NCBI GenBank assembly: GCA_030148505.1
Contig: JASBTI010000009.1
Location: 310,001 to 374,000, forward strand
Reading direction: 5' to 3'
DNA from: Rhodanobacter sp.
Lineage (GTDB): Bacteria; Pseudomonadota; Gammaproteobacteria; Xanthomonadales; Rhodanobacteraceae
DNA length: 64,000 nt
The notes under the pieces are model-generated. The model was not told the DNA's origin. It did no database searches and saw nothing but the letters and a program-made list of their open reading frames with translations. Shown here in pieces: positions 20,868-21,497 of this stretch. The position numbers and the translations under genes are program-made. The stretch's first letter is position 1. Each line of letters starts with the position of its first letter.

Positions 20868-21497
20868 ATGGCAACAGCAAAATTCATCAAGCCTTATGTC
20901 GAGCACGGCGAAAAGGCGAATGCAGTTAGGAAGATCACCGTGTCTATTCCGCTGCATGTACTGCGGCGTCTTTCGGATTTGCGCACGCACCGTCAAGTGA
21001 ACAATCTAAGGCACGCTACCAACAGCGACTTGTTGGTCGAAGCGTTCCTGCACGCTTTTACTGGGCAACCACTGCCAACTGATGAGGAGCTGAGACGAAC
21101 CATGGCCACTGCCAAGAAACCTGCCGCAAAGAAACCGGCCGCCAAGAAGGCCGCCAAGAAATCCACCGTGAAAAAGGTTGCCGCTAAGAAGCCGGTAGCC
21201 AAGAAGCCGGCCGCAAAGAAAGCTGCGGTCAAGAAGTCGGCTGCGAAAAAGAAGCCGGCTGTGAAAAAGGCAGCAGCCAAGAAGGCTGCGGTCAAGAAAG
21301 TTGCTACCCGCAAGGTCGCTGCCAAGAAGCCGGCAGCCAAGAAAGCGGCAGCCAAGAAGCCGGCTGCTGCGAAAAAGGCAGCCGTGAAGAAGGTTGCCGT
21401 GAAGAAAGTCGCTGTGAAAAAGGCTGCCAGGAAGCCGGCGGTCAAGAAAGCTGCAACGGCCCGGGTGGGAAAAGCCACCCGAACCTCCAAAAAGTAA
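20868..21497 (+). CDS. MetJ-like repressor fused to a histone-H1-like Lys/Ala-rich tail
   Basis: Residues 1-78 are a MetJ domain. [11 protein letters not shown] is the DNA-binding beta strand, and [30 protein letters not shown] is nearly identical to E. coli MetJ, including the residues around the S-adenosylmethionine pocket. The C-terminal helices of E. coli MetJ are replaced by a 131-residue tail (79-209) made almost only of Lys, Ala, Pro and Val in [13 protein letters not shown] repeats, like AlgP or bacterial H1 homologues. The protein should therefore be a SAM-responsive ribbon-helix-helix repressor with a non-specific DNA-binding or compacting arm. The ATG at 20868 follows GGGGAA. The tail starts with its own Met79 (ATG at 21102) behind an AGGAG at 21085-21089, so a separate tail protein is conceivable. 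Confidence 0.9.

Follow-up and report, generated by a model that had tools for sequence, protein, structure and literature searches.

A MetJ repressor and a histone H1-like tail share one reading frame in Rhodanobacteraceae, probably with a second translation start at the joint

The window, the whole 64,000-nucleotide stretch of Rhodanobacter DNA analysed here, contains an open reading frame, metJ-H1, in which a methionine repressor runs on into a tail resembling histone H1. The locus raises the question of whether this frame encodes one protein or two, and how the neighbouring families come to be without the combination. The earlier note on this DNA had placed both parts in one frame, and the frame is indeed uninterrupted, with the Pfam profiles for MetJ and for HC2 both matched above their cut-offs:

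20868..21497, + strand: metJ-H1 open reading frame, 209 aa, uninterrupted; MetJ repressor with an H1-like tail
20868..21101, + strand: residues 1-78, the MetJ domain, lacking the C-terminal helix seen in E. coli MetJ; from Pfam, NCBIfam and PDB matches
21102..21497, + strand: residues 79-209, the H1-like Lys/Ala tail, which the ATG at 21102 probably also yields as a separate protein of 131 aa; from Pfam HC2, the kept ATG and free-standing open reading frames in family f2

The N-terminal part is matched by the Pfam family MetJ (PF01340; residues 5-85, 4.2e-35, 120.1 bits against a cut-off of 25), by the NCBIfam MetJ equivalog (NF003622; 124.4 bits against a cut-off of 110) and by the E. coli MetJ structure 1cma (4.3e-31, residues 4-77 of metJ-H1). 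Identity to E. coli metJ is 69.3% over residues 3-77, in keeping with the resemblance first reported for residues 1-78. The β-strand RKITVSIP is strongly conserved among 19 aligned sequences, with K22, T24, V25 and S26 invariant and I23 nearly so, and its K-I-T-V-S segment corresponds to the DNA-contact strand of the E. coli structure. Leu38 and His41 of the window protein presumably lie near the SAM site; position 41 is Arg in 56 of 122 sequences from the same family, and tail-less relatives read DERTRRQ in this region. These differences count against the reading in which SAM would serve as the co-repressor of MetJ-H1. The C-terminal helix of MetJ (E. coli residues after about 80) is absent and the tail stands in its place. 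A check for a second, canonical metJ had been proposed; no second MetJ was found in the organism's own genome, and metJ-H1 is the only one seen there.

The tail comprises 131 residues, of which 48 are Lys and 45 Ala, with no Asp or Glu. It scores 53 bits against Pfam HC2, above the cut-off of 40, and since it is low in complexity, composition carries much of this score. The NCBIfam equivalog hist_H1_lk_Burk gives 50.3 bits, below its cut-off of 80, and we therefore call the tail ‘H1-like’ rather than filing it as that equivalog; position 1 of this model aligns with residue 79 of metJ-H1, an internal Met. In its Lys/Ala/Pro repeats the tail resembles bacterial H1-like proteins (Chlamydia Hc2/HctB, Burkholderia H1-like and AlgP), from which it differs in being fused to a repressor and in falling under the NCBIfam cut-off. 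An AlphaFold model of metJ-H1 reached a pLDDT of 48.6, too poor for use in a fold search, with the tail lacking predicted structure.

How widely the combination occurs was assessed in 398 genomes of the order, with family counts and sizes taken by hand. MetJ is present in 145 of these, namely in all 125 genomes of the Rhodanobacteraceae (f1; named relatives include Rhodanobacter, Dyella, Luteibacter and Frateuria), 13 of f9, six of f12 and one of f8, and was found in none of the 128 genomes of f2, which we infer to be the Xanthomonadaceae. Of two comparisons of f2 sequence with plasmid records, one gave a 57-base hit to Xanthomonas sacchari and the other no match. Within this sample the long-tailed form is limited to the Rhodanobacteraceae, so that the suggested search for Lys/Ala-tailed MetJ proteins across Xanthomonadales uncovered an entire family, but not a trait of the order. 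MetJ frames in this family span 137-399 aa, with a single exception of 89 aa that is cut at a contig end, while the tail-less proteins measure 79 aa (three from f12 that were examined), 90-97 aa (thirteen from f9) and 90 aa (one from f8). The three f12 proteins end at about the same place as the MetJ part of the fusion, so that a missing C-terminal helix is shared with tail-less MetJ; this qualifies the statement of the earlier note that the tail replaces the normal C-terminal helices. In a class-wide sample, five of 369 genomes carry MetJ, and the three outside the order have frames of 112-118 aa, too short for such a tail. In a plasmid collection, 15 records matched with an ordinary metJ at 69-71% identity, in each case over less than 80% of the query. 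Among the Rhodanobacteraceae the same frame runs on across the joint, apart from one broken copy (L124) and three cut by contig ends (L022, L057 and L058), and this conservation excludes the frameshift or assembly error between residues 78 and 79 that had been named as a possible source of the fusion.

All 118 complete, distinct proteins of the family carry the Lys/Ala tail. Counted from residue 76, it ranges from 43 to 312 aa (median 103), contains at least 31% K+R, and has no acidic residue in 107 proteins, one in 10 and two in one; many tails of Rhodanobacter and Dyella end in AKVVKATKTAK or similar. The wide range of lengths and the lack of predicted structure would both fit an ordinary disordered tail, a low-complexity expansion that drifts and has no function beyond its charge. 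The organism's own genome has other K/A-rich stretches, in a second HC2-type protein that is AlgP-like by eye (L158, 94.5 bits) and at the end of a protein that is topoisomerase-I-like by eye (L159, below the HC2 cut-off). Such drift is, however, hard to match with a basic tail of at most two acidic residues in every one of the 118 proteins, or with the retention in f2 of an H1-like gene without metJ, most of whose products have a similar C-terminal end, and we regard it as highly improbable.

A new feature of the locus lies in the DNA at the joint, where the following elements were found:

21054..21101, + strand: frozen nucleotide element over codons 63-78, probable internal translation initiation region; from third-position changes and a 38-nt core
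21084..21089, + strand: Shine-Dalgarno-like GAGGAG, 12 nt before the internal ATG
21102..21104, + strand: internal in-frame ATG, kept in 121 of 122 sequences

Parsimony on a tree built from gcvH and metJ codons 1-60 (105 of the 122 sequences) yields 1.27 third-position changes per codon over codons 63-77 against 13.7 over codons 3-62, and the quietest window of 15 codons begins exactly at codon 63. The block retains codons that are rare in four open reading frames of the window (AGA 0.01, CCA 0.07, ACT 0.08). Its 38-nt core (21060-21097, at most three mismatches) recurs in 119 of the 398 genomes, all of them Rhodanobacteraceae, with no hit for the reversed pattern; there is one copy per genome except in G382, where one of two copies lies at a contig end, and six genomes of the family exceed three mismatches. 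One of these six (G238, L133) keeps the fusion but has lost the element, with GTG in place of ATG and most of the rare codons changed to common ones, so that the internal start is dispensable there. Where the ATG is kept, it follows an Arg-Arg pair directly in seven sequences and one codon later in 114, and the residue in between varies (Thr, Asp, Ile, Ala or absent). Mean Shine-Dalgarno duplex energies are -8.4 kcal/mol for the internal start, -5.8 for the main start and -3.0 for other codon windows, 4.3% of which equal the internal start in pairing, including windows that overlap the same site. GAGGAG lies 12 nt from the ATG in 114 of 122 sequences of the family, a long spacing which indicates that internal initiation may be weak.

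Because the frozen codons lead to a kept ATG, the Shine-Dalgarno match is better than that of the main start and a free-standing gene in f2 has a similar leader, translation very probably starts a second time at the joint, which would yield a free H1-like protein beside the MetJ-H1 fusion. Translation from the ATG at 21102 had been put forward as an alternative to the fusion; such a start is indeed plausible, given its conserved initiation region and its correspondence to the start of a free-standing gene in f2, but the evidence points to both products rather than to one in place of the other. It could instead be argued that only the full-length fusion is made and that the DNA was frozen for another use; the coding sequence might, for example, contain a regulatory RNA element, the target of a small RNA, or a site for processing or protein binding. 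The block reaches 48 nt before the ATG, which exceeds the needs of a plain ribosome site and is in part unexplained, and a CTGGGC motif far upstream is kept within 110 nt of the ATG in 30 of 35 f2 leaders (shuffles 0.049). Within 21054-21110, a pairing of GCUUUU with AGGAGC might mask the internal Shine-Dalgarno sequence, and GGCA/UGCC could form a hairpin. Folding energy, however, supports neither pairing, the predicted folds not surpassing those of shuffles (z +0.7 and +1.1), an Rfam scan of the block gave no family at gathering score, the block leads directly to an ATG that nearly all sequences keep, and similar DNA leads the free-standing gene of f2. We consider this alternative unlikely.

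Several more specific candidates at the joint were rejected. A hammerhead-like CUGAUGA..CGAA scored 16.4 bits against the 37 required for Rfam Hammerhead_II (E 3.8) and its GAA is not kept in several genera; a stable RNA hairpin was dismissed as the folds lie at shuffle level; a sigma-54-like TGGGCA..TGCC has the wrong spacing by eye; and a +1-frame stop before the ATG, also judged by eye, is not kept in CTT variants.

Upstream of metJ-H1 the window contains the following:

18755..19855, + strand: gcvT, context; name from the earlier note
19970..20365, + strand: gcvH, syntenic neighbour, 500 nt before metJ-H1; upstream in 114 of 122 loci
20696..20711, strand not assigned: tandem met box GGACGTATAGCCGTCC with 2 mismatches, probably the operator through which MetJ would regulate its own gene; boxes in 108 of 126 upstream regions of the family
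20811..20839, + strand: promoter-like TTGACA-N17-TAGCTT directly upstream of metJ-H1; conserved in an alignment of 15 chosen representatives

That gcvH is the neighbour of metJ-H1, as had been pointed out, holds across the family, but since a conserved promoter-like sequence directly precedes metJ-H1, the two genes probably do not form one operon. The position of gcvH gives access to the corresponding locus in f2, where its surroundings were read in 41 genomes (11 + 30). A free H1-like open reading frame lies within 1.5 kb downstream of gcvH in 35 of these, and none was seen in the stretch read in the other six. These frames begin with MATKKAAKK, MAVKKAAKK, MAMKKAAKK and the like; their Shine-Dalgarno sequence lies 7 nt from the ATG in 24 of 34, with a mean pairing energy of -8.0, and in 29 of 35 the leader contains ACTGAYGARGA no more than 32 nt from the ATG (shuffles 0.0). 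In two loci (L221 and L247) the leader keeps GCCTTTGNGACTGGGCAG and reads AF-x-TGQ and, in another frame, PTDEELT-MATKK. Some tail-less MetJ genes of f12 and f9 encode TGQ..PTDEEL with DNA similar to the f2 leader, which is hence most simply understood, from these sequence likenesses, as the decayed end of metJ. In family f2, it appears, metJ has been lost while the gene for the tail was retained. What a first step of such decay could look like is seen in a copy from the Rhodanobacteraceae (L124 in G392), which has TGA at metJ codon 42, possibly a sequencing error, and both element and tail intact.

The opposite history would have a free H1-like gene after gcvH as the ancestral state, with metJ arriving in front of it and becoming fused in the Rhodanobacteraceae. 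The presence of the free frame in most f2 genomes would agree with this, as would the three f12 genomes compared, in which metJ and gcvH lie on different contigs. Yet f2 would then have needed to invent DNA resembling the MetJ end (TGQ and PTDEEL codons) that is also found in some tail-less MetJ genes of f12 and f9, and an H1-first order of events seems quite improbable to us.

The f2 leaders have further features of their own. At about 60-150 nt before the ATG, many loci (L222-L224, L232, L233, L239, L240, L243, L249, L252 and others) show a conserved ATCCGT, then a hairpin like CCGGCGCGCC/GGCGCGCCGG, then the T-arm-like CGCGGGTCCGACTCCCGCG and then ACTGGGC. A tRNA-like element was rejected, as ARAGORN finds none in 13 loci; Rfam gave nothing over the gathering score in 11 loci, and the consensus fold is weak. 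In most complete f2 proteins the Lys/Ala repeats are followed by a hydrophobic end such as APVALPATPAPLI.

Whether the MetJ part still acts as a repressor can be approached through its operators. Tandem met boxes (RGACGTCTAGACGTCY, 0-4 mismatches) lie 165-199 nt before the start of metJ-H1 in 108 of 126 distinct upstream regions of the family, against a shuffle mean of 5.9; in the remaining 18, which include Luteibacter and some Dyella, the box is weak or missing. All 31 genomes of the genus that were searched contain such boxes, 4-26 each, with 0-2 for a reversed-pattern control. Not every box need be an operator, since 10 of the 16 in genome G388 lie inside frames of a rough gene call. Three positions are common to G388 (where copies were partly judged by translation only) and the organism's own genome: in front of metJ-H1, between the gene of a LysR regulator and cysG, and between a cysK-like PLP enzyme and an alpha/beta hydrolase that is metX-like by context. 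At the last of these, a SAM-I riboswitch begins 37 nt after the box in the own genome.

By hand counts over 200 genomes searched, SAM-I riboswitches occur in 34 genomes of the Rhodanobacteraceae and 33 of f2. In all 20 of the former that were read (of 34), a met box with 0-2 mismatches lies 43-64 nt before the riboswitch, beside a TTGAC -35 box. None was found at this promoter in 20 f2 genomes (of 33), where the best match is at shuffle level with 6-8 mismatches, and many of these 20 have instead a palindrome like ATCGCTTCATCCGNATGAAGCGAT before TTGACA. The 24-bp length of the SamR motif (Leyn et al., PMC4239095) suggests a match to this palindrome, but the half-sites stated do not fit plainly and we offer it only as a suggestion. 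With boxes both upstream of metJ-H1 and at the promoter of the met operon, the case for a regulator has become stronger than first claimed, and metJ-H1 looks, from its sequence and sites, like a working MetJ.

Outside the window, the region G000:C34:377876-378045 (L163, L267) carries met box and SAM-I riboswitch in tandem before the met operon, an arrangement that suggests control by SAM at the levels of transcription and RNA together. Elsewhere, two loci from two genomes (L164 and L201) have tandem met boxes with two mismatches each beside a similar small lipoprotein-like gene, the boxes apparently lying outside any ordinary promoter. A further box (L160, 1499-1518), one of two in its genome without a mismatch to the 20-bp pattern, lies just upstream of a Gcw_chp outer-membrane-type protein, which may possibly be a methionine-regulated porin.

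Comparison with known systems brings out both likeness and difference. As with E. coli MetJ (PDB 1cma family, PF01340), tandem met boxes mark its own gene and the met operon; unlike it, MetJ-H1 has the tail in place of the C-terminal helix and a putative internal start, and its met operon has a SAM-I riboswitch as well. In E. coli, infB, clpB and cheA have in-frame internal starts and two products each. The predicted second start of metJ-H1 would follow the same principle of one frame with two starts, except that its products would belong to different protein families and that the shorter one stands free in a neighbouring family.

The published record touches on several of these points. Xanthomonas campestris XC_1234, listed as ‘Histone H1’ with 156 aa (PMC8578834, Table 1), has no MetJ part and is possibly the free-standing homologue of the tail, a likeness drawn from annotation and locus number: it is numbered 17 before XC1251, the SAM-I met operon of X. 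campestris (PMC7270179), and in one f2 genome (G061) gcvH and the riboswitch are about 24 kb apart. In Rhodanobacter R12, proteomics showed a protein annotated as MetJ to rise while four methionine enzymes fell (PMC12146267); the word histone is absent from the main text, and we infer that this protein would be the fusion. Leyn 2014 (PMC4239095) reported no MetJ in four Xanthomonadales genomes and Zhang 2018 (PMC6230763) called metJ missing in X. campestris 8004, whereas according to the introduction of PMC7270179 Xanthomonas, too, seems to have conserved the MetR/MetJ system, which contradicts both Zhang 2018 and the absence of MetJ from the 128 f2 genomes. The X. campestris met operon, with its SAM-I riboswitch, was reported as constitutively transcribed (PMC6230763, PMC7270179), for which the loss of repressor and operator may offer a reason, with the riboswitch left to do the work. 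Among the matches listed from open-licence literature there was none for a MetJ-H1 fusion, an internal start or a link to the free H1 gene. MetJ, H1-like proteins and a MetJ annotation in Rhodanobacter are known and in print; as far as this literature was searched, the nesting of MetJ and H1 in one frame and their separation in a neighbouring family have no published description.

We propose the following model. Translation from the ATG at 20868 would give a MetJ repressor that binds, presumably with SAM, the tandem met boxes found at its own gene and at the met operon with the SAM-I riboswitch, and the disordered cationic tail would add non-specific DNA affinity, perhaps allowing the protein to spread. 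From the internal ATG at 21102, with an initiation region in the last MetJ codons, a free H1-like nucleoid protein would be made, as its conservation and the f2 gene suggest. If MetJ is autoregulated, methionine and SAM status would set the amount of both products. In f2, metJ would have decayed, a different palindrome would occupy the operator site of the met promoter, and the tail would have lived on as a gene of its own, translated from what had been the internal start. That the Rhodanobacteraceae have one gene for two proteins is, taken as a whole, the best explanation and in our view a likely one. Towards the fuller account we lean with less assurance: a SAM-sensing repressor and an H1-like coat protein in one frame with two starts, through which methionine would set the transcription of met genes as well as the amount of a nucleoid protein. 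The nested start would then have been the origin of a separate gene in the Xanthomonadaceae, where metJ decayed, a different operator came to occupy the met promoter and the leader remained as a fossil of the metJ end.

A whole family next to one without MetJ thus has the repressor, fused to an H1-like tail. If the model is true, the locus would let one read how a regulator was replaced and how a gene became separate by way of an internal start whose fossil is still present. The SAM level may in this way be coupled to nucleoid structure, amounting to SAM-controlled compaction of the chromosome, and this link between SAM and the nucleoid is directly testable in soil bacteria.
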